A stretch of DNA of 37,011 nucleotides from IMG/VR virus record IMGVR_UViG_3300021197_000448, positions 1-37,011 of that record; one strand, 5' to 3'. The position numbers were made by a program, and so were the translations under genes. Positions 6,574-32,052 of the stretch are shown here, one piece after another. Below the pieces are notes generated by a model. It had not been told where the DNA came from, did not search any database, and saw only the letters and a program-made list of their open reading frames with translations. Source of the DNA: a virus. Each line of letters starts with the position of its first letter. Position 1 is the first letter of the stretch.

Positions 6574-7218
6574 TTATTTACCCCCTAGTAAATTCCCGAT
6601 AAAACTTCCCTCGCCTGCTTGGTCTGCTATGCCTGGTAAACTTGGAACAACGGAACCGGCAATGCCAGCTACTCCTCCAATTATAGAACTAGTCGCTGCA
6701 TCTCTGGCTGCGTTCGCTGCACTTAATCTTTGTTGGGACATACCTAACAGAGTTTCTGTTTTATCTTTTTCAGCAGCTCTAGACTCGTAAGCGCCTTGAA
6801 GCTCCTGGCTTTGTAATTGTGAGGCCATTTGTCTTTCAGCCATTTGGTTCGAAGCTTCTTGTTGTCCAATACTTGCGGATGCAGATTGTGCATTTGCAGT
6901 TTGTTGTTGGGCAAGTGATTGTGCTAGTGCAGCTATGCCAGATCCACCAGCAGCACCAGATAGCTTATCCATAGTACTCGCCATGCCAGCTTGTTGTTGT
7001 TGATTAATAAAGTCTGACTGCTGTGTGTTAACCGTTAGGTCTTCCATAGTATTTTCTTGGTTAACCGCTAGATTAGATGTGTCTAAGCCTTCCATACGTG
7101 CTTTGTTCTTATCAAATTCTCTCTGAGCTTCTCTTTGTTCTCGTTTTCTTTTACCGCTTCCTATGATCCCCCCGGCTATCCCCGCGAGACCTTGTACGGC
7201 ACCTAACATTGGTATCAT
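6574..7218 (-). CDS. Internal virion protein, Ala/Gln-rich (small ejection-type protein)
   Basis: A 214-residue protein beginning with a Gly/Ala-rich hydrophobic segment (residues 4-21, GAVQGLAGIAGGIIGSG), then the basic cluster KRKREQREAQRE. The middle carries MEDLTVNTQQ and a Gln/Ala/Ser-rich helical stretch including GIAALAQSLAQQ. A second Gly/Ala hydrophobic segment lies near residues 178-195. This layout recurs in many marine and crAss-like podophages beside the tail genes and resembles internal ejection proteins such as T7 gp14 in size and composition. It follows the tail accessory genes and precedes the lipoprotein and the large internal proteins. The likely role is formation of an ejection channel in the host envelope; the family resemblance is from memory. 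Confidence 0.8.
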   Translation of the reverse strand: MIPMLGAVQGLAGIAGGIIGSGKRKREQREAQREFDKNKARMEGLDTSNLAVNQENTMEDLTVNTQQSDFINQQQQAGMASTMDKLSGAAGGSGIAALAQSLAQQQTANAQSASASIGQQEASNQMAERQMASQLQSQELQGAYESRAAEKDKTETLLGMSQQRLSAANAARDAATSSIIGGVAGIAGSVVPSLPGIADQAGEGSFIGNLLGGK

Positions 7219-19564: not shown

Positions 19565-20815
19565 TTATTTTAAATGTTTAAAAGTTTTAATTCGTAATTT
19601 TGAATCGGCACTTCCTGAATCGACTGATCTAACTGTAAACCCGTTGGCAGTTTTAACTTCTTGATGAACGCCTCTCGCGCCCATCTGTACGTTTTTACTT
19701 TTTGCCATACTATCTTTCATAGCGTCGGCTTTGCCTTGCTCATAAAAGTGATTTGCAATTGAGTCCGCATTCATAGCTGTGAATAATCCTTTGTGATAAC
19801 CTTTGGCATCTGACATTTCGTTTTTTTCATTCAAGAACTTCTTGACAAAATTGTTAATATCGCTTTGGTTTTCTTTAACGGAATTAGCGTCTTTAACTTT
19901 AAAACGGTATTTTTTGTCTCCAACTTGATAATCAAAACCTTTGAAATCATTACCGAAAACATTACTCGTTTTATTTAAAAACACTTCTGTTTGCTTCTCA
20001 GCTACTCGAGTTGCCTCTTCATTTTCTTTTGTATAGCGATTGAAAAAATCTACCGCTTTTTGTTGCTCAGGCGCTAATTTAGAACCCGATTTTATTTCTT
20101 TATAATATTTAGACTTTAAGCCGTCTAAATGGTTTTTAGCTTTAGCTAATTCTTCTCTTTGTGATATCTTCTTACGTCTTATTTCTCTTTCATCATCAAC
20201 TTCTTCGTCATAAGAAAATTTATCTTCCATAAGAAAATCAATGTCTTCTTTATCTAAATGAGGTCTAGTGTTTTCATAATACTCTCTTAGTAATTGATTC
20301 TCATTTAAAGAGCTATAGTCTTGATTAAGCTTTACATAATCCTCTAAACTTCCTCCGGTTTCTTGCATAAACTCTACAACTTTCTGTATGTTTTCTGGCA
20401 AAGGTTCCGCGGTGTCTTGTGATTGCTGAACAGCTTGTTCTATTTCTTCTTTTAACTCTTCTGTTTTTTCTTCAACCTCTTCGTCTGTTATTTCTTCAAG
20501 AACGGATTCTTCAGCTTGAACGGGCTCTGGTTGTTGTGGTACTTCTTTTTCCACTTCTTGTACAGGTTCGGCTTGTTGATCTGAAGCCACGTCTGTTGTT
20601 TCTTGCTCTGTATTGGCATCTTCTTGTGGTTTATTAAGTTGAGTTAAATCTAATTTAATACCGCCACTGTCTTCATCGATTGAAACCGGAGAATCCATTT
20701 TTGGTTGGGGTTCAGCTTTAACTTCCTCAGGAGCTTCTTTAACTTGTTCAGCTACTGGTTCTTTTTTTTCAGGGGCTTTAATCTTAAAGCTACCTTCTGT
20801 TTTAATTTCTGACAT
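19565..20815 (-). CDS. Scaffold-like head assembly protein, acidic
   Basis: A 416-residue protein between portal and major capsid genes. The first 170 residues are disordered and strongly acidic (Glu/Gln/Pro/Val repeats such as EVEKEVPQQPEPVQAEES). The rest is charged and helical, with a coiled-coil-like stretch around REIRRKKISQREELAKAKNH and a basic C-terminus (DSKLRIKTFKHLK). Acidic-to-helical proteins with a basic tail next to the capsid gene are characteristic of phage scaffolds. No protease motif is visible, and no prohead protease gene is seen in the window. The role is assigned from position and composition. Confidence 0.75.
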   Translation of the reverse strand: MSEIKTEGSFKIKAPEKKEPVAEQVKEAPEEVKAEPQPKMDSPVSIDEDSGGIKLDLTQLNKPQEDANTEQETTDVASDQQAEPVQEVEKEVPQQPEPVQAEESVLEEITDEEVEEKTEELKEEIEQAVQQSQDTAEPLPENIQKVVEFMQETGGSLEDYVKLNQDYSSLNENQLLREYYENTRPHLDKEDIDFLMEDKFSYDEEVDDEREIRRKKISQREELAKAKNHLDGLKSKYYKEIKSGSKLAPEQQKAVDFFNRYTKENEEATRVAEKQTEVFLNKTSNVFGNDFKGFDYQVGDKKYRFKVKDANSVKENQSDINNFVKKFLNEKNEMSDAKGYHKGLFTAMNADSIANHFYEQGKADAMKDSMAKSKNVQMGARGVHQEVKTANGFTVRSVDSGSADSKLRIKTFKHLK

Positions 20816-23281: not shown

Positions 23282-25492
23282 CTATTTTATTATTTTTGAT
23301 GTTGATCCTTCGATTTGATATTTAGCAAATCTTATATTAATTGGTGCTCTTTCCATTCTGATATTTGGTCTATATAAATCTTTATGACAAGCCATAATAG
23401 CAAGTCCTGAGCTAATAGCGGCATCAAATTTTGTTCTGTTATTTATATCGAATTTGGCCCAGTCTTGTAATGTTTCATTAAAATACATTGTTCCATATTC
23501 GTTTTGATCGTTCAAACCTACGTGCTTATCTATATACATTTCAATAGCAGCAGCATGAGCTTGCTTAATGTCTTCGCTTGAATTAGGTATTCCACCTATT
23601 TCTCTTTCAGTTACAGATAGCTTGTTCCACAGTTTATCAGGACGATTCATTGAGTAACCTCTATAACCTCTTCTTTTAAAATAATATAAAAGCCTTGGTT
23701 TGTTATTTTCACAAAGAAGCGGCATACCATAAAATACACAAGCCATCAATACGTCTTCAAAAAATATTTCAGCTGTTTGAGGCCTTGCCACATATTCTAA
23801 AAAAAATGTGCTTGGTGGAGCATCTTCCATGCTAAACTTAGTTAAGCCGTGTAAGGCACCTTTAGATCCTCTACCATCAGTTGTTCCTGATATATCATAG
23901 CTATCACAACCAAAAGCACCCATATGCTCATTACCAGGCCATTTAATACCATTCTTTGATATCTGCCTATTTTGTATATCGTAGTTAGGTATCCAGCTTA
24001 TTAAAAATCTTCCATTTGGATTTGGTGAAAAAATTACTTTTGAATCTTTAATACCATTTTCCCATTGGAAACTTCCTTTTGTTAAAACATTACTGTTACC
24101 CAAGTCTTCGTTATAATCTATTTGCTCGTATATTTTAGCTAAGTTAAATATACTGTTTTTAGTTTCATCTCTGAACGCATGCTCTTCTGTTCTTGGAAAC
24201 TGTCTATAAAATTCGTTTAAAGCATCTTGATCACCCTTTAAACCTTCAACTTCATTGTTCCAATGCTCTATTACGCCTTGATCTATTTCGTCCCCATGAG
24301 GCCCGACAGTTTTGTCTTTTGGTGTGTTGAATACAGGTAACCCATAAGAATCAATGAATCCCTCGTAGTTCCATTCCATAGGTATGAACAAACTATATAA
24401 TCCCGAGCGAGTCTGTCCATTGGCGTTTCTTTTTGTAACATCTGAACTATTATATAATTTTTTAAAATTGTCCCCCCCTTTATCTAAAGCATTTGATGTT
24501 GATCCCATCATACACTTACCGATAATTCTAGATCCTAACCTTAATGTTGTTTTAGTAACCCTCCAATTGTTGAGGATATTATTTGGTCTTTCCCATTTAC
24601 CGCTCTCATCGTGGACGAGTAGCTTAAGTTTTTCTCCGTCATAAGCATTGTCTCCTGTATTCTTCCAATCGATGGTTGTGTCCAGGCCAGCAAGTATTTC
24701 TCTGGATTCGTTGTTATCAAGTTTTCTTCTTGTAAATTTAGATGCGGGTACACGATAGGCAAGTTCAGTTTTTGGTCTGTCCATACCATCTTGTATTGGT
24801 TTAAAGAAAAACGGAAAGTTAACACTGATGGGCACAACCTTGTCGGTAAACATTTTTTTTGCATCAGAACCAGACTTGGATAATATACCGAATCTTGAGT
24901 CACTTGATATCGTAGCCATGTTAACCGTTTCCCCTGAGGCCATAAATGAGAACCCGCTACGTCTGTTTTTAAGGTAGGCCATACCGTAGCATCTTCTATC
25001 TGCTTTGCAAGCTTCCCAGAATATATAGAATAATCTGTTTGACTCTCTAAAATCTGGCTGCCCAACATCAATCTTGGACCACTGCAAGTACATAAAGTGA
25101 GTACCAGTAATGTAAGTATCCACACCCTTATTATTGAACCAGTGACCGTATTCTCTTTTATTGAAATTTTCATCTATATATTTCCCCCAAGTTTTTTTAA
25201 ATCCTTCAGGATAATCCCTCCAATCAAAAATACTTTTAATACCTTTTAATTGTTTAGGATATTCTTCAGGTGTCCATTTATCTGTAGCTTTACTAATTTT
25301 GCCAGGTGACTTGGGTAATGCTATTTTAAGATTTTGTATCTTATATACTTCACCTATTTGTCCTGTTTTACTTATAACAACTACATCGTGTTCTTTATTA
25401 TAACCGTATTCCCATTTTTTGCCTTTATTTAATCTAGATAAAGTAGTGCGCTTTATAGGTTCTATAATTTCGTATAAAGTTTGCTTATACAT
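23282..25492 (-). CDS. Terminase large subunit (TerL)
   Basis: A 736-residue packaging ATPase-nuclease. Residues 175-183 (KNRRSGFSF) fit the degenerate Walker A region of this terminase group. Residues 291-296 (LLVHDE) form the Walker B with its catalytic acid. A coupling-type segment MMGSTSNALDKGG follows. The nuclease half starts near GAFGCDSYDISGTTDGRG, whose Asp residues fit the first metal-binding site. YFEDV-like acidic positions appear later (EIFFEDVLMACVFYGMPLLC). Start: the ATG overlaps the upstream stop as TAATG. It also contains one SPGK motif near residue 62, like the small basic proteins upstream. It is followed by the portal. Confidence 0.93.
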   Translation of the reverse strand: MYKQTLYEIIEPIKRTTLSRLNKGKKWEYGYNKEHDVVVISKTGQIGEVYKIQNLKIALPKSPGKISKATDKWTPEEYPKQLKGIKSIFDWRDYPEGFKKTWGKYIDENFNKREYGHWFNNKGVDTYITGTHFMYLQWSKIDVGQPDFRESNRLFYIFWEACKADRRCYGMAYLKNRRSGFSFMASGETVNMATISSDSRFGILSKSGSDAKKMFTDKVVPISVNFPFFFKPIQDGMDRPKTELAYRVPASKFTRRKLDNNESREILAGLDTTIDWKNTGDNAYDGEKLKLLVHDESGKWERPNNILNNWRVTKTTLRLGSRIIGKCMMGSTSNALDKGGDNFKKLYNSSDVTKRNANGQTRSGLYSLFIPMEWNYEGFIDSYGLPVFNTPKDKTVGPHGDEIDQGVIEHWNNEVEGLKGDQDALNEFYRQFPRTEEHAFRDETKNSIFNLAKIYEQIDYNEDLGNSNVLTKGSFQWENGIKDSKVIFSPNPNGRFLISWIPNYDIQNRQISKNGIKWPGNEHMGAFGCDSYDISGTTDGRGSKGALHGLTKFSMEDAPPSTFFLEYVARPQTAEIFFEDVLMACVFYGMPLLCENNKPRLLYYFKRRGYRGYSMNRPDKLWNKLSVTEREIGGIPNSSEDIKQAHAAAIEMYIDKHVGLNDQNEYGTMYFNETLQDWAKFDINNRTKFDAAISSGLAIMACHKDLYRPNIRMERAPINIRFAKYQIEGSTSKIIK

Positions 25493-25767
25493 TACTTAGA
25501 TCTTTTTTCAGCAAACCCACCGAATGAAGTTGTTTCAACTTCTTTTTTAGGCTTATTATCTAATATTCTTTCTTCTTCCTCAATGCGGTTAAGTATTTCG
25601 AAAGCATCAAAAATTGCAAGCTTTTTAGTAGCTGCAGCATTTTTTAATCTATCAGCGGATATATCATCATCTGAATCAACAATATCTTCTTTAGCTACTT
25701 TAATAAGTTCCTCAACTGCTCTGTGCCCAGCCTGGATTATACTCTTCTTCGTTTCCTTGATGTTCAT
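25492..25767 (-). CDS. Small helical protein upstream of TerL, candidate small terminase subunit
   Basis: A 91-residue, highly charged, fully helical protein: AGHRAVEELIKVAKEDIV, then ISADRLKNAAATKKLAIFDA and FEILNRIEEEERILD. The conserved-looking SADRLKNAAATKKLAIFDAF block recurs, as I recall, in proteins placed just before TerL in related phages. It overlaps the end of the upstream gene by 56 bases and the start of TerL by TAATG, implying coupled translation. Size, charge and position fit a small terminase subunit, but no DNA-binding motif is evident. An alternative is a packaging accessory protein. Confidence 0.78.
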   Translation of the reverse strand: MNIKETKKSIIQAGHRAVEELIKVAKEDIVDSDDDISADRLKNAAATKKLAIFDAFEILNRIEEEERILDNKPKKEVETTSFGGFAEKRSK

Positions 25768-26305
25768 ATTTGATTGTAATTGAATTGACGGGTACTCGGT
25801 ATAACCTCTGCCCTTCTATTATAAATTCATATTCTGAATTCGGCCTAAACCCTATCAATTGCTCTTTTTCAAATTCACCATTCGAGTATTTTACAATACC
25901 AACTAATGGCCTTTCATCATTTACAGAAAACATTTTTGTTTCTTTTATAGGCATAACAAATACAAAGCCGTCTAAAGCTTTCCATTCGTTATTTCTTTTA
26001 TAAGCATACACTTGATCTGGTTGAACTAAATATACATTTTCACTTAAATAGTTTTTACTATCTTTCTCTTTACCTCTAACATCTCTAAATCTTCTAAATA
26101 CATTGTGATGTACAATAATATCATCGCCTTCTTTTAATTCCTTATATACTGTTACTAGTGGTAAACTTAATACAGTTCCTATTCTATTCACGTATTCGTG
26201 ATTTTGTAATTCTGTATTTAATAATAGCTCTTGTCCTTCTACTTCTTTTTTTCCAGTTGACCTACTGCCCTTCGGTTCAACTAGGTAATTGAATACACTG
26301 TGCAT
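25712..26305 (-). CDS. Conserved phage protein, beta-rich, possibly two GroES-like barrels
   Basis: A 197-residue protein whose ATG follows the previous stop directly. The sequence is strand-rich: RIGTVLSLPLVTVYKELKEG then DDIIVHHNVFRRFRD, and later PLVGIVKYSN with LIGFRPNSEYEFIIEGQRLY. The pattern of a G-T/I-V strand, a hydrophobic segment, a GD turn and an I-V-h-h strand recalls the GroES barrel, and a weaker second copy may follow. A true co-chaperonin gene is already present at 30204-30461, so the resemblance could be fold-level only. It precedes the small terminase candidate. I am sure it is a gene and unsure of its function. Confidence 0.8.
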   Translation of the reverse strand: MHSVFNYLVEPKGSRSTGKKEVEGQELLLNTELQNHEYVNRIGTVLSLPLVTVYKELKEGDDIIVHHNVFRRFRDVRGKEKDSKNYLSENVYLVQPDQVYAYKRNNEWKALDGFVFVMPIKETKMFSVNDERPLVGIVKYSNGEFEKEQLIGFRPNSEYEFIIEGQRLYRVPVNSITIKYEHQGNEEEYNPGWAQSS

Positions 26306-26956: not shown

Positions 26957-27316
26957 TTAGCAATTCCATTTACGTCTTGCTGCTTTACCTCTTTCGCCAG
27001 TCCAACCTCTGGATCTTGCGCAGAATGATTTACGTCTTTTAGCCGCTTTGCTATCCGGATCTAGTTTTGATGGAGGAGTTGTTACTGCGGTTTTTAAATT
27101 ACCACCAGTTTTTTTATTGTAATTAGCAACACCTTTAGCTGTCATTCCGCCTCCAGCATCTTTACCAGTACCTCCGCCTTTTTTTACTTCAGCGTAGTTA
27201 CCAGATTTTTTATTACGCTTAGGTGCGTATGATTTTGATTTTGCCTTTTTAAGAGGACTTGCGTATCTCTCAGTCGTCATTAAAGCTGGAGAACAAGGTT
27301 TCATTTTAAATGCCAT
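26957..27316 (-). CDS. DUF6321-like small basic protein
   Basis: A 119-residue, very basic protein. The C-terminal half carries GGGMTAKGVANYNKKTGG, then LKTAVTTPPSKLDPDSKAA, KRRKSFCARSRGW and a final RKWNC. This pattern fits the family I know as DUF6321, found in aquatic phages and some large algal viruses. The N-terminus is different: MAFKMKPCSPALMTTERYAS followed by PLKKAKSKS, which shares the MAFKM start and SP motifs with other proteins of this cluster. The ATG overlaps the upstream stop as TAATG. DNA or RNA binding is plausible from charge; the family has no function I know of. Confidence 0.85.
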   Translation of the reverse strand: MAFKMKPCSPALMTTERYASPLKKAKSKSYAPKRNKKSGNYAEVKKGGGTGKDAGGGMTAKGVANYNKKTGGNLKTAVTTPPSKLDPDSKAAKRRKSFCARSRGWTGERGKAARRKWNC

Positions 27317-28236
27317 TATTTAAAGTAGTTTTTCTTCATTGGTGACTTTGATTTAAAAAAGTTTGGAGAACTTTTTTTGCCGGTTCCTTTAACCCCTCCG
27401 GCCTCAATAACAGTTTTTTGGCCTTCGTAAGTTTTAGATGCATCATACAATTCCATATCTCTAGAGGCGCTATCAAATGTTCCAGTTTTTAATGGATCCT
27501 TACTCATTTCAACTTGTCTAGTTCGAGCTGTCATGTTTTTATTAAAAGCATCTAACTCTGCGTAATTTTCTTCTACTTTAGCTTTTTTCCTAGCATTTCT
27601 AACTGCTTCCCTGCGCTTTTTACCTTTAAGCTTTTCTGTTTTTTGAAAATTACCATCTTTGTCTATTCTACCACCACCACTAGCCGCTAGTTTAGCCGCT
27701 TTTATTTTAGCCTGACGGACATCCTTACCAGATTTTTTAATTGACCTACTCTGTTGCCTAACTCTCCAAGGCGACATTGCATCCATTTTATCTCTTGTTT
27801 GGGTTGCGGTAAATTTTTCTTTTTCATCACCTGGTATTACTTCATCTGGTTCACTTTGCCCAGTGTCTACCTGATCTCTTGGCACATTAGGATTATCCTT
27901 AGCCCATTGTTTCATTTCATCCGTAACTATAATTCCTTCTGCTTCTAAATCTGCAAATGTTTTATTTCTAGTTATTTTTTTCCCTTTAACAATTTTATCC
28001 CCGGTTGACTCTGATTCTAATACACCTACTTTCTGCTTTATTGGCGACTCAGTTTTTTTTTTCATTGAGTAACCTCTTAGCTTACTTGGCGATGGAATGT
28101 CTCTAGTTTGATTATCCCCATGCACACCAGCTGGGCCTACATTTAATAAAGGTTCTTTTACGCCTTTCTTTTGATTAAATAAACCAGATTCCACTCTTGC
28201 GGTAATTGGTATGTTCTTTTTTCCTTTTGTTCCCAT
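27316..28236 (-). CDS. Basic, low-complexity SPxK-motif protein, 306 residues
   Basis: A 306-residue protein with Lys-rich composition and no clear globular core. SPxK motifs occur as PSPSK, ESPIK and KSPMK, with variants MSPWR and SSPNFFK. A strongly basic stretch KLKGKKRREAVRNARKKAKV lies near residues 205-225. The extreme C-terminus (FFKSKSPMKKNYFK) combines SP motifs with aromatic residues. It lies in a run of six genes sharing the SPxK motif. Possible roles are DNA condensation in the virion, a linker or cargo protein, or a substrate of assembly proteases. None is established. The protein would be intrinsically disordered for much of its length. Confidence 0.78.
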   Translation of the reverse strand: MGTKGKKNIPITARVESGLFNQKKGVKEPLLNVGPAGVHGDNQTRDIPSPSKLRGYSMKKKTESPIKQKVGVLESESTGDKIVKGKKITRNKTFADLEAEGIIVTDEMKQWAKDNPNVPRDQVDTGQSEPDEVIPGDEKEKFTATQTRDKMDAMSPWRVRQQSRSIKKSGKDVRQAKIKAAKLAASGGGRIDKDGNFQKTEKLKGKKRREAVRNARKKAKVEENYAELDAFNKNMTARTRQVEMSKDPLKTGTFDSASRDMELYDASKTYEGQKTVIEAGGVKGTGKKSSPNFFKSKSPMKKNYFK

Positions 28237-28241
28237 TATAG

Positions 28242-28670
28242 TTAGTTATTTTTGTTGTCAGTTAAATCAGCCGCTTTAGGTTCTGGTTTTAAATTTTTAA
28301 AAGCTTTGCCAACTTCAGCACCTGCATCAACAAACTTTTTACCAGTAACAGCTGCTCCTGCTACTAAAGTTTCATTTATTTTGAAAGGTGATGATTTTGA
28401 TTTTTGTGTTATTGGATTCATTTTAGTAGGACTAGCTAAATCGCCACCGTATCCATCTTGAAAATAAGCTTCTCCGCCGTAAAAGTTTTTCTTTTTGCCA
28501 GGTGATGAAAGTCTTTCTTGAAAAGATGCTTTAGCTTGCTTCAAAGAAACTTCTTCTCCTCCGACACCTTGTCTTGGTCCTGGATCAGATTTTTCTTGAA
28601 AACCACTCGCGTTTTGTTTAGACTCTATTTTATTAAGCCTACTTGCTTGTCCTCTATATGTAATTGCCAT
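28242..28670 (-). CDS. SPxK-motif protein, 142 residues
   Basis: A 142-residue polar protein with SSPGK, ASPTK and SSPFK motifs. The N-terminus reads MAITYRGQASRLNKIESKQN. The C-terminal half contains the most structured part, INETLVAGAAVTGKKFVDAG and AEVGKAFKNLKPEP, with a short Ala/Gly/Val helix. A very similar helix (GAALTSKKFLDVAGAVKQGL) opens the internal virion protein at 4922-6139, which hints that this protein also ends up inside the particle. The gene is separated from its neighbours by five and two bases. I recognise no named family. Confidence 0.75.
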   Translation of the reverse strand: MAITYRGQASRLNKIESKQNASGFQEKSDPGPRQGVGGEEVSLKQAKASFQERLSSPGKKKNFYGGEAYFQDGYGGDLASPTKMNPITQKSKSSPFKINETLVAGAAVTGKKFVDAGAEVGKAFKNLKPEPKAADLTDNKNN

Positions 28671-28672
28671 AA

Positions 28673-29026
28673 TTATGATTGTTTATATGCTTCGTCCTCC
28701 CATTCAAAATCAGGATGCCCCTCGTTCATTTCAGACCGTTTGTATACTTTCATAGGAGATTTAGTGTCTCTTTTCCAAGTTACAGAATCTTCTGTGTATT
28801 GTAATCTACCGGTAGCTAGTTGATCTAAATGAACTTTTTCGTGAGCAACAGCTTTTTCTATCTTTTTATCAGATAATTTTGAACTAACAAAAATAGTTCC
28901 ATCTCTATTAGCTTCAGCTTCAACCCCTTCTTCCAAATCATCTTTTAAAATGACAGGAGTACCAAACTGGGATGTTTTTTCATGTATCCCAAATACTTCT
29001 GAATGAGGTTTTAACTTAAATGCCAT
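28673..29026 (-). CDS. Mini metallopeptidase-like protein with HEKVH motif, 117 residues
   Basis: A 117-residue protein with HEKVH at residues 62-66 inside the helix AVAHEKVHLDQLATG, a good fit to the HExxH zinc site of metallopeptidases. It is preceded by the strand GTIFVSSKLSDKK. A later acidic segment, EWEDEAY at 108-114, could give the third zinc ligand. It is much shorter than cellular M-type peptidases and looks like a minimal catalytic core. It starts MAFKLKPHSE, like two neighbours, and has one SPxK motif (KSPMK). Its place among SPxK proteins suggests they might be its substrates, which is speculation. The ATG overlaps the upstream stop. Confidence 0.78.
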   Translation of the reverse strand: MAFKLKPHSEVFGIHEKTSQFGTPVILKDDLEEGVEAEANRDGTIFVSSKLSDKKIEKAVAHEKVHLDQLATGRLQYTEDSVTWKRDTKSPMKVYKRSEMNEGHPDFEWEDEAYKQS

Positions 29027-29430
29027 TATCCTTTATATCCAGATTTAGAAGCTGCTTGTGCATTTTCCGCGTAATGCTTTCTTGCTTTAGCACTTAATTT
29101 TTGGTTTGAAGCTTCTTTAATATCATACTTCATTCCTTTATTCATTTTAGCTGGCGATTTACCTTGTTTAGCAGCAATTGCATCTACTATTTGTTTTGGT
29201 AAATTCTTTTTTTGCTTAGCTGTTTGCTTAGCAGGTGATTCGTAATCTCTTTTTGATTTGCTTTCGTCACCTTTTTTACCGCCATACATTTTTGCAGGTG
29301 ATTCGTAATCTAATTTACTTTTAGATTCATCTCCTTTTTTACCGCCATACATTTTAGCAGGTGATGCAGCTCCACCTTTTCTTGCTCCAATTTTGTTTGG
29401 ACCAATACCTTTAAATCCTGAATATCCCAT
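29026..29430 (-). CDS. SPAK-repeat basic protein, 134 residues
   Basis: A 134-residue Lys/Gly/Ser-rich protein with four SPAK motifs. Two tandem 21-residue units contain SPAKMYGGKKGDESKSK followed by L or R and DYE; a third begins with SPAKQ. The remainder is basic (KQKKNLPKQIVDAIAAKQGK) and ends in a helix rich in Ala and Lys. The DNA of the two units differs at synonymous positions while the protein is nearly identical, so the unit appears to be kept by selection. It lies second in the SPxK cluster. Function is unknown; nucleic acid binding or display of a repeated docking motif are options. Confidence 0.8.
   Translation of the reverse strand: MGYSGFKGIGPNKIGARKGGAASPAKMYGGKKGDESKSKLDYESPAKMYGGKKGDESKSKRDYESPAKQTAKQKKNLPKQIVDAIAAKQGKSPAKMNKGMKYDIKEASNQKLSAKARKHYAENAQAASKSGYKG
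29231..29356 (-). repeat. Two tandem 63-bp units inside the SPAK-repeat gene
   Basis: Units span 29231-29293 and 29294-29356, each encoding 21 residues that start with SPA in the plus-strand landmark gcaggtgattcg. A third partial unit starts at 29357. The units differ mainly at third codon positions and one K/L-R site, so the duplication is not recent. Confidence 0.8.
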
Positions 29431-29440
29431 TTTTAATTAT

Positions 29441-29764
29441 TTATTTGTTAGTTTTTTTTGTTTCTACTTTTTTAGGCATATAACATTTCTTTTTTCTATA
29501 TTTTCCACCTGCTTTTTTACAAGCTACCCTTTCTTTACTTGATAAAGTTATATTACCTAATTTCTTACCAATATCTTTAACTTTCGACACTACCTTGTCT
29601 TTTACTTCATCTGCTTTTTCTGCTACAACTTTAGGCAAATCTTTAACTTTAACTTGCTTAGCTGGTGAAGATGGAGATGATGATACCACAGGCTTTATTG
29701 CTTGAGGTGTTTGATGTCCTATTGATTTTAACAACGGAGATTTGGGGTTCATTTTAAATGCCAT
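29441..29764 (-). CDS. SPxK-motif basic protein, 107 residues
   Basis: A 107-residue protein starting MAFKMNPKSPLLKSIGHQTP, with a second motif SSPSSPAK near residue 34. A charged amphipathic helix follows (VVAEKADEVKDKVVSKVKDI), then a compact basic C-terminus with two Cys (RVACKKAGGKYRKKKCYMPK). The start MAFKM plus an early SP is shared with the DUF6321-like protein, and the DNA of the two starts is identical over 17 bases (ATGGCATTTAAAATGAA). It is the first gene of the SPxK cluster, two bases after the stop of the 146-residue gene. Function is unknown. Confidence 0.78.
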   Translation of the reverse strand: MAFKMNPKSPLLKSIGHQTPQAIKPVVSSSPSSPAKQVKVKDLPKVVAEKADEVKDKVVSKVKDIGKKLGNITLSSKERVACKKAGGKYRKKKCYMPKKVETKKTNK

Positions 29765-29766
29765 AA

Positions 29767-30207
29767 TTATCTTTCTTTATCTTTTATCATATCGTCAATA
29801 GCTTTATTGTAAACTTTGTCCGTATATGTTTTGTTTTTATAAAACTTACTTCTTGAAGATGTTGGTAAATCTTCTTCTGCTAATAGTATTCTGTATATCC
29901 TATTAATTAAATTTTTACATTTAAAAGATGTTGTATATACAGTGAACTTTTTTGTTGTTCTGTTTCTTTGACTCCATACATCGATCCAACCTCCAGTTCT
30001 TAATCTTTCCCATCTAGCTTTATCCCAAGAGTATGTGTACACACCTTCTATAAAATCATTACGTGTAAAATGCTTTTTACAATCTAAATAAAATAGCAAT
30101 TCAAGATCTGCATCTTTTATGTCATAAGTTTTACAAGCCCATTTTCTAACAAGCCTGTAATACTTAAACAAATTCATTTCTCGCAGATCTTTTGAAGTTA
30201 ATCTCAT
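29767..30207 (-). CDS. Possible winged-helix-type small protein
   Basis: A 146-residue basic protein. The segment DIKDADLELLFYLDCKKHFT, then RNDFIEGVYTYSWDKARWER and LRTGGWIDVWSQRN, looks like a helix-turn-helix followed by a beta wing, as in MarR/PadR-like winged helices. The end holds KCKNLINRIYRILLAEEDLP. I recall similar proteins in aquatic podophages near the structural genes. The start overlaps the groES stop as ATGA. A regulator of late genes or a structural DNA-binding protein are both possible. The fold assignment is by eye and uncertain. Confidence 0.75.
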   Translation of the reverse strand: MRLTSKDLREMNLFKYYRLVRKWACKTYDIKDADLELLFYLDCKKHFTRNDFIEGVYTYSWDKARWERLRTGGWIDVWSQRNRTTKKFTVYTTSFKCKNLINRIYRILLAEEDLPTSSRSKFYKNKTYTDKVYNKAIDDMIKDKER

Positions 30208-30461
30208 TCTACTAAAACAACATCATTGATGGTAATAACGTGGTACATCTTATCACCCCATTCAATACCATGACCTGCATGTTTATCGTATCTTATAATG
30301 CTATCTTTTTTTATATAATCTACTTTATCACCAGAACTTATAACTTTTGCCTTTAAGTACCTAATGTCTTTATTTTGACTTTCAGTTAATTCAAGACCAC
30401 CTACTGTCTTCGGCGCTTCTTTTATTTTATCAATAACGATGTAATAATTAATTGCTTTCAA
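30204..30461 (-). CDS. groES: Co-chaperonin, GroES-like
   Basis: An 85-residue protein with the GroES pattern: an N-terminal strand (INYYIVIDKI), the mobile loop with KTVGGLELTES in place of the usual GGIVL, then the strand block YLKAKVISSGDK, KKDSIIRYDKHAGHGIEWGD and MYHVITINDVVLVE. The loop's hydrophobic tripeptide, which contacts GroEL, is L-E-L. It is shorter than cellular GroES (about 97 residues). The only fitting start is a TTG (30459-30461), inside the end of groEL, so the two genes overlap by 14 bases and translation is probably coupled. Order is groEL then groES, opposite to the usual bacterial operon. It should cap the phage GroEL. Confidence 0.88.
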   Translation of the reverse strand: MKAINYYIVIDKIKEAPKTVGGLELTESQNKDIRYLKAKVISSGDKVDYIKKDSIIRYDKHAGHGIEWGDKMYHVITINDVVLVE

Positions 30462-32052
30462 GAGTTCTTACGTTTGAGATTATACAATCAGCCGATACAA
30501 TAGTTGTCGCTACACTTATCGCATTCTTTAAAGCCGCTTTAGTTACTAATACTGGATCTATAATTCCACTATCAATCATATTCTTATAACACCCACAAGT
30601 AGCATCAATACCAACGCCCGCCCAGTCTCTATCATTTATGTCTTTATTACTTTCAACATACTCTTTAGGATTTAAAGCATCATCAAAACCAGCATTCTTT
30701 AATATAGTATGGTAAGGTGCTGTTATAGCGCTTAATAATATATCATAGCCTTCGTTTTGTTTTACTATGGTTTGCGAAGCGTTAAGTAAAGCAACACCAC
30801 CACCTGGCACAATGCCTTCTGCTAATGCAGCTTTAGTCGCATGCAAAGCATCATCAACTCTATCTTTCTTTTCTTTAAGCTCAACTTCTGAATCTGCGCC
30901 AATATAGATTACTCCAACCTTTCCAGTTAGCATTGATAATCTTTCTTGTAGCTTCTTTTTAATCCAGCCGTTTTTTTCTTTTTCTATTTTTCTCTCTACG
31001 TCTTTAATTCTTTCAGCTACAGGTTCTGTAACTTCATTAATTTGCAGTGTAGTGTTTTTATCGTCTGTAACGGACTTAACAACCTCGCCTAATACATTTA
31101 CATCTATTAAGTCTAAATCATCGCCTAACTCCTCATTAACAGACGTGGCACCCGTTAGAATAGCTAAATCTTCTATAGCATCTTCTTTAGTTGGCCCAAA
31201 TCCAGGTAAATCTACAATATTTACTTTTATATTGCCTTTAACTTTATTAGCGAGCAATGTAGCATACGGTTGTTGATCTACTGGGGCAACAATCAATAAA
31301 GAACGTTTGTTTTTTATAACGTGTTCCAATATGCCTTGTATTCTTCTTACATTAGGTATTGCTGAGCTTACTATTAACACATAAGGATTTTCTAATACTG
31401 CTGTGCCTTTTTCTTTATCTGTTATTAAGTGTGGTGATTTAATACCTGAATTAAATTGTGTACCCTCAACAAACTCAACATAAGTTTCATTTGTAGGGGA
31501 GTCTTCCATTAATACAACTCCGTTTCTTCCAACTTTTTCATAAGCTTCTCCAATCTTGTCTCCAAGCTCTTGGTCATTGTTACAACTAATATATGCAACT
31601 TGACTAAGCATTTCACCTTTAACCTCAGTGGAGGTAGTATCAAGATAGTCCATAATCTCTTTAGCACATCCTGCAACTCCTTCTTTAATATATCTAATTG
31701 ATTCTTCGCCATTGTATTCGTTTAGTTTATTTAATAGTGATTGAGCAAGGACGATAGCCGTAGTGGTACCGTCACCTGCTTCTTTCACTGTATTGCTAGC
31801 AGCTTCTTTTATTAAAGTAGCTCCTATATTTTCGACCGGGTCCATTAAGACTACGCTTTCCGCAACGGTTACACCATCTTTTGTGATTACCGGCCTGCCC
31901 ATAGCGTCTTCGTATATAACGCATTTTCCAGAAGCACCTAATGTAGACTTCACTGCGTCGGATAATTTAGAAACACCGGACATAATTTTATTTCGTGCAT
32001 CATCGCCGAAATTCAGATCTTTAACAATCTGACTAGGTAAATTGAATTCCAT
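30448..32052 (-). CDS. groEL: Chaperonin GroEL, phage-encoded
   Basis: A full-length 534-residue group I chaperonin. ATP-site signatures are present: TLGASGKCV at 37-45, ITKDGVTVAE with Asp59, GDGTTTA at 93-99 with Asp94, and the DALHATKAALAEG segment with Asp401 followed by GGG at 417-419. The equatorial end NMIDSGIIDPVLVTKAALKN is intact. All three catalytic Asp equivalents are kept, so it should hydrolyse ATP. The C-terminal Gly-Gly-Met tail typical of bacterial GroEL is missing, and the N-terminus is about seven residues longer. Apical-domain positions differ from E. coli (see finding). It is placed 29 bases after the preceding gene and overlaps groES. It likely folds capsid or giant tail proteins during infection. 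Confidence 0.95.
   Translation of the reverse strand: MEFNLPSQIVKDLNFGDDARNKIMSGVSKLSDAVKSTLGASGKCVIYEDAMGRPVITKDGVTVAESVVLMDPVENIGATLIKEAASNTVKEAGDGTTTAIVLAQSLLNKLNEYNGEESIRYIKEGVAGCAKEIMDYLDTTSTEVKGEMLSQVAYISCNNDQELGDKIGEAYEKVGRNGVVLMEDSPTNETYVEFVEGTQFNSGIKSPHLITDKEKGTAVLENPYVLIVSSAIPNVRRIQGILEHVIKNKRSLLIVAPVDQQPYATLLANKVKGNIKVNIVDLPGFGPTKEDAIEDLAILTGATSVNEELGDDLDLIDVNVLGEVVKSVTDDKNTTLQINEVTEPVAERIKDVERKIEKEKNGWIKKKLQERLSMLTGKVGVIYIGADSEVELKEKKDRVDDALHATKAALAEGIVPGGGVALLNASQTIVKQNEGYDILLSAITAPYHTILKNAGFDDALNPKEYVESNKDINDRDWAGVGIDATCGCYKNMIDSGIIDPVLVTKAALKNAISVATTIVSADCIISNVRTLESN

Follow-up and report, generated by a model that had tools for sequence, protein, structure and literature searches.

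SPxK, a conserved short motif on clustered small proteins of an uncultured aquatic phage group, as a candidate capsid-loading tag

Background

In bacteriophage T4, internal proteins carry a short capsid-targeting sequence in which residues 4 and 7 serve targeting and residues 8 and 10 serve processing (PMC9026906), and this signal can load almost any protein fused to it (PMC9026906, PMC7697877). Here we analyse 37,011 nucleotides of DNA from an uncultured marine phage (IMG/VR record IMGVR_UViG_3300021197_000448, positions 1 to 37,011; hereafter the window), in which six adjacent genes encode proteins that recall the T4 set IPI, IPII, IPIII and Alt, in that they are small, mostly basic (five of six here) and mutually unrelated, with a common short motif, SPxK. 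The resemblance does not extend to the signal itself: SPxK and its companion peptide FK[ML]K are unrelated in sequence to the T4 signal, occur in several copies and take internal and C-terminal positions, and the six N-termini (MAFKMK, MGTKGK, MAITYR, MAFKLK, MGYSGF, MAFKMN) do not match the T4 type. By description only, a further parallel is crAss001 (PMC10172136), likewise a short-tailed Bacteroidota phage, which stores many viral proteins in its virion (gp45, gp46, RNA polymerase subunits), although these are large and no shared short motif is noted in the sections of that source on which we draw.

Profile matches of the window's TerL, portal and major capsid protein (MCP) to phrog_6681, 6547 and 13704 (TerL E 1.7e-162, portal E 3.7e-149) place it in a large, mostly uncultured aquatic phage group, marked by TerL phrog_6681 and related to cultured flavobacteriophages. 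Among cultured phages, those nearest to it are Elemovirus, Maribacter phage Panino, and the Pachyviridae and Pervagoviridae phages of Flavobacteriaceae; one environmental genome is closer (TerL 63% identical). Pachyviridae, Pervagoviridae and Elemovirus (phi18:3, phi38:1, elemo phages) share a homologous TerL, portal and head module, and a GroES-like gene adjoining TerL, but TerL identity is just 32-45%, and they hold 0-2 scattered SPxK with no block. That the hosts are Bacteroidota we infer from the cultured phages and from metagenome-assembled genomes: about half of the titles of those holding such contigs point that way.

Conservation and clustering of SPxK

An earlier note on this DNA had counted 13 exact copies of SPxK in the six genes between 26957 and 29764, and our recount agrees: one in the 107-residue protein (p107; the others are named likewise), four in p134, one in p117, three each in p142 and p306, and one in p119. 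Also as it had reported, a single copy lies outside the block, the SPGK of TerL, with none in the remaining 29 of the other 30 open reading frames (ORFs). When residues were shuffled within the six proteins (4000 trials), copies averaged 0.67 and never exceeded 5, as compared with the 13 observed, while the rest of the window holds 1 against 1.6 expected. The same excess is found in uncultured relatives, where the six families together hold 480 copies (shuffled means in brackets): p117 15 (2.5), p134 74 (3.1), p142 135 (4.2), p306 169 (10.6), p119 59 (6.7) and p107 28 (1.4), or 6 to 32 times as many as in composition-matched shuffles. Density there is 1.7-16.8 SPxK per 1000 amino acids, against 0.24 in other ORFs; the p117 family has the lowest value because its motif is mostly SPxR (42 SPxR, 15 SPxK, 4 TPxR). 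The basic neighbour p146 has none in relatives, and a Lys/Ser/Pro-rich composition as the source of the motif is ruled out by the shuffles together with p146.

The copies also share a recognisable core, S-P-[AFLSM]-K-[KQMI], to which a MAFK[ML] or PITx[KR] peptide at the N-terminus is often added. Of the 480 copies, 439 have A, L, F, S or M as x, and in 417 the lysine is followed by K, Q, M or I. Within the p306 family, whose middle is unconserved, three islands around SPxK are conserved, with S, P and K of the motif kept at 0.88 against 0.37 at other S/P/K positions. Broader forms exist, namely SPxxK (SPLLK in p107), an extension recognised after the fact, and the predominant SPAR of the p117 family. 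The SPGK of TerL is absent from two relatives (L006 and L007), so that TerL probably does not count as a carrier in the way that the six proteins do. Copies near residue 577 or 783 in the portal of some relatives were left aside, since the window portal has none. Confinement of the motif to close relatives was suspected at first, since no copies were apparent near TerL in loci whose TerL is about 75-80% identical, and was rejected because the tagged genes in such genomes are partly located elsewhere. SPxK is a real, conserved, clustered and lineage-wide short motif; a literature search on it returned nothing relevant.

A different tag on the same cargo domains

The carrier p119 contains a DUF6321 domain, as had been supposed from its sequence (53.6 bits against a Pfam gathering score of 28.5); the structure model of the domain is poor (predicted local distance difference test score, pLDDT, 58). 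This domain occurs in many marine phages and, in the phrog_6681 group, is often preceded by SPx(x)K. We compared 41 contigs with a readable DUF6321 ORF, 32 without and nine with TerL phrog_6681, for a strict T4-type signal (F or Y at position 4, aromatic at 7, aliphatic at 8, acidic at 10), a start that had been predicted for cargo homologues before those ORFs were inspected. The DUF6321 ORF begins with this signal (MKTFLEFLEEA, MKSFKEFLEEA, MQNFKQWLEEA and so on) on 22 of the 32 contigs without TerL phrog_6681 and on none of the nine with it (Fisher p=2.6e-4; with duplicates removed 16/25 against 0/9, p=0.001), p-values which overstate the case because homology and sampling make the counts non-independent. 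Background frequencies are low, at 13 of 522 other ORFs of those contigs (2.5%) and 1 of 2520 ORFs in phrog_6681 loci. The nine ORFs alongside TerL phrog_6681 begin with MAY.Q.(N/D)SPF.KK, PITxK or similar, and their basic neighbours hold 14 SPxK in 4101 amino acids, against 1 in 7568 near the others. The pair gp23 and gp21 was found on none of these nine contigs; in a search of the contigs, which are incomplete, the gp21 family PF03420 turned up on six of the others and not on the nine.

The exclusion holds in wider samples. Among 139 unique DUF6321 ORFs, 63 carry SPx(x)K, 17 a T4-type signal and none both, and when four further modules are added (ORFs under 400 amino acids, n=201) 88 are tagged, 19 have the T4-type signal and again none has both. 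On the same cargo domains, among them CWxGY, WPSAYASG and others whose copies in other phages start in the T4 manner, one tag excludes the other. SPx(x)K stands ahead of the DUF6321 core 82 times and inside it never (0 in 9262 amino acids), and none was found in the DUF6321 ORF of the 32 contigs without TerL phrog_6681, so that the motif is not a property of DUF6321. We also looked for, and did not find, a T4 signal on the zincin-like protein of Melnitz. Literature searches found no mention of DUF6321, and capsid targeting combined with cyanophages led to a single T4 review.

A possible loading mechanism

Because the same cargo domains carry a T4-type tag elsewhere and SPx(x)K here, and never both, SPxK is probably the group's own capsid-loading tag, and most likely a code that works like the T4 type without being a member of it. 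The earlier note had suggested a common tag for a shared partner, and an undescribed virion-cargo system, with capsid loading and histone-H1-like DNA binding among the options; the tag swap and the lack of doubly tagged proteins favour the former, and the latter is disfavoured (see below). On balance we lean towards the view that SPxK is a short linear tag on exchangeable cargo domains that are captured, packaged and delivered into the host. Under this model, phages of the group would attach SPxK, often with MAFK[ML] or PITx[KR], to small cargo domains; a partner in the growing procapsid, be it scaffold, portal or inner shell, would capture the tag; and the tagged proteins would be packaged alongside the DNA and then enter the host, the route that the capsid-targeting sequence gives to the internal proteins of T4. 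The two short tags, SPxK and T4-type, would then bring the same cargo into the head. That the proteins reside in the virion, depend on the tag for this, bind such a partner and reach the host is in each case inferred from these comparisons.

Further support comes from the peptide that often accompanies SPxK. Scanning DNA for MAFKM[KN] yielded 108 varied proteins, of which 36 have SPxK, and TerL phrog_6681 is present on 33 of 43 tested contigs with such proteins, which links the peptide to the group. An N-terminal [FY]K[ML][KN] and SPxK co-occur 78 times against 16 expected (5720 unique short ORFs from all loci, whose sampling was non-random). In two related genomes, homologues of the window's tail-module protein (6574-7218) bear SPxK at the N-terminus, a further point in favour of the model. 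The likely scaffold of the window (Table 1) is a possible partner, or mimic, of the cargo peptide MAFK[ML]K: in a post hoc comparison, FK[ILMV][KRA] occurs within the 45 N-terminal residues of 18 of 90 unique scaffold homologues and of 26 of 1238 other ORFs. That SPxK and FK[ML]K form a second, independently evolved code on cargo that T4-like marine phages also tag, one that may copy EG[SEDT]FK[IVL]K of the scaffold, seems to us an evenly balanced proposition. A second motif, PITx[KR], is seen at residue 10 of p306, at residue 86 of p142 and, in several tagged relatives, N-terminally.

Several observations weigh against capsid loading. Shared ancestry is a confounder for both tag and phage group, so that the cases are not independent. 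The cultured relatives with virion proteomics (phi18:3, phi38:1) lack the SPxK block, and the multiple copies per protein and their internal positions are unlike the T4 signal. Exact SPxK occurs in just one of the nine DUF6321 ORFs on contigs with TerL phrog_6681, most having SPFxK, SPLxK or NPF variants. Of the 139 DUF6321 ORFs, 59 bear neither tag, among them the free-standing copies of pelagiphage HTVC033P and T7-like S-TIP28, and the domain consequently does not always need one. Both gp23 and gp21 are found on only 6 of the 32 contigs without TerL phrog_6681, most of the others being fragments, so that the T4-like label rests on the signal itself and on the six with gp23. Finally, the T4-type start was also predicted for the T4-GC 119 chains of Kyanoviridae, which were the first target, and was not found there.

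These T4-GC 119 proteins nevertheless offer an instructive comparison. Like the carriers, they hold the same modules near the terminase (gp16/gp17), but as one long chain joined by acidic xxE linkers (L441, L443, L445, L446, L447, L448, L449, L451), with no SPxK in the eight proteins searched. The protein is labelled structural in S-E7, and its terminase-side position, shared with the carriers, is consistent with capsid loading. The chain is possibly a head polyprotein cut by gp21, a suggestion that could be tested at once in cultured phages.

If the capsid-loading model is correct, SPxK would stand beside the T4 signal as a second sequence code that directs proteins into phage heads, one that belongs to a widespread uncultured aquatic group and not to the T4 lineage. 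It would also supply a rule for reading dozens of small "hypothetical" genes as virion cargo (the tag first, then the host role of the domain), would make cargo repertoires (zincin-like, PAP2-like, DUF6321 and others) predictable from sequence, and could provide a short transferable peptide useful for packaging.

Alternative explanations

An alternative, which we consider unlikely though worth weighing, is that SPxK is a processing site, one of the options named in the earlier note. A protease of the phage, possibly the HExxH protein p117, would cut the carriers there and so release small active pieces. The position of the motif lends this some support: SPxK often lies directly ahead of a module (SPAK before KTAAWTRK, SPAK before GKKDACYHKV, SPMK before CWKGYERV), where cyanophage chains have acidic linkers that may serve as comparable cut sites, and a zincin-like gene lies inside the block. 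The T4 signal, moreover, combines targeting with cleavage, so that processing may be part of the same function. However, the p117 motif belongs to a hairpin within the predicted fold, a poor fit for cleavage; the last p306 copy is nine residues from the C-terminus and many carriers end a few residues from a copy; and the MCP and scaffold of the window lack SPxK.

Less probable again is that SPxK was left behind by gene duplication and domain shuffling in a Lys-rich family, as a linker sequence without a binding partner. Modules and linkers are indeed shuffled among carriers, with SPAKQTAKQKKNLP and KNMNKGYGPAK recurring across families, yet the motif residues of p306 are conserved well above its other S/P/K positions, and the hairpin that bears the p117 motif is absent from untagged homologues.

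Least probable of all is the minor-groove idea, that SPxK is a histone-H1-like S/TPKK element with which these proteins condense phage or host DNA and need no capsid tag, for although SPxK resembles the histone H1 motifs as a short Ser-Pro-x-Lys repeat in basic proteins (five carriers have an isoelectric point, pI, of 9.6-10.6), a basic residue (K or R) occupies x in 3 of 480 copies, which does not fit the S/T-P-K/R-K/R repeats of H1-like SPKK proteins, x is mostly hydrophobic or Ser, Thr variants are rare (34 TPxK), the acidic p117 (pI 5.5) carries the motif, and SPxK follows phage group and not basic domain.

Genomic context and carrier proteins

The six carrier genes overlap or abut, are co-directional with TerL and the head genes, and are flanked by GroEL, GroES and p146 on one side and by p92, p77, a GroES-like gene, p91 and TerL on the other (Table 1). 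Their products, the carriers encoded in this interval from GroEL to TerL, are small domains that can be exchanged.

Table 1 Features of the window discussed in the text
Feature	Coordinates	Strand	Details
p107, Lys-rich	29441..29764	-	N-terminus MAFKMNPKSPLLK; SPAK 29657-29668
p134, repeat protein	29026..29430	-	ASNQKLSAKARKHYAENAQAA module; SPAK 29353-29364, 29290-29301, 29227-29238, 29146-29157
p117, predicted small zincin	28673..29026	-	N-terminus MAFKLK; HEKVH ... WExEAY; SPMK 28748-28759 on beta-hairpin
p142	28242..28670	-	SPGK 28494-28505, SPTK 28422-28433, SPFK 28380-28391; PITQK
p306	27316..28236	-	SPSK 28081-28092, SPIK 28036-28047, SPMK 27334-27345 (C-terminal SPMKKNYFK); PITAR
p119	26957..27316	-	N-terminus MAFKMKPCSP; SPLK 27248-27259, then DUF6321 (residues 51-108)
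p146, basic neighbour of block	29767-30207		SPxK = 0
Phage GroEL, upstream of carrier block	30448..32052	-	context
TerL (phrog_6681), group marker	23282..25492	-	SPGK at residue 62, not conserved
Likely scaffold, acidic, between portal and MCP	19565..20815	-	N-terminus MSEIKTEGSFKIK

The acidic carrier p117 is a predicted gluzincin-like metallopeptidase. HExxH is kept in 64 of 65 homologues, and E110 and E112 are invariant. Its model (pLDDT 82), in which the motif hairpin joins strands 81-84 and 93-96, has its best structural neighbours among PprI/IrrE-type domains, at a modest score (Z 6.3 to PprI over 82 residues, root-mean-square deviation 3.1; Foldseek E 0.2 or worse). One homologue (L010:2800-3174) has lost HExxH (EEDNH) and kept SPAR, so that loss of the putative catalytic site need not entail loss of the motif. 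The carriers p134, p107, p142 and p306 are rich in Lys, their composition suggests disorder, and they have segments in common with one another's relatives. Searches with p117, p306, p134 and p142 against 50,697 phage records gave zero matches, and turned up no cultured SPxK phage of the group.

Two GroES-like genes, at 25712-26305 (197 amino acids) and 30204-30461, accompany the phage GroEL, and the former overlaps a 91-residue ORF (25492-25767) upstream of TerL. The group's large contigs have their tagged genes near GroEL, in the interval from there to TerL, and also at a second site. Among the tagged genes of this second site is a protein that resembles PAP2 phosphatases by eye (RPRPKV...PSYPSGHS...AHY.SD; L304:8312-8839, L307:6962-7504, L317:8180-8707). 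Further repeated modules in phages with MAFKM and SPxK include GPKGKFVNYTKDDGTKIKYYYK, SPSSAFQM and KYASDAQRKAIYASKAE (L424:7338-7775, L436:3466-3843, L328:5079-5453).

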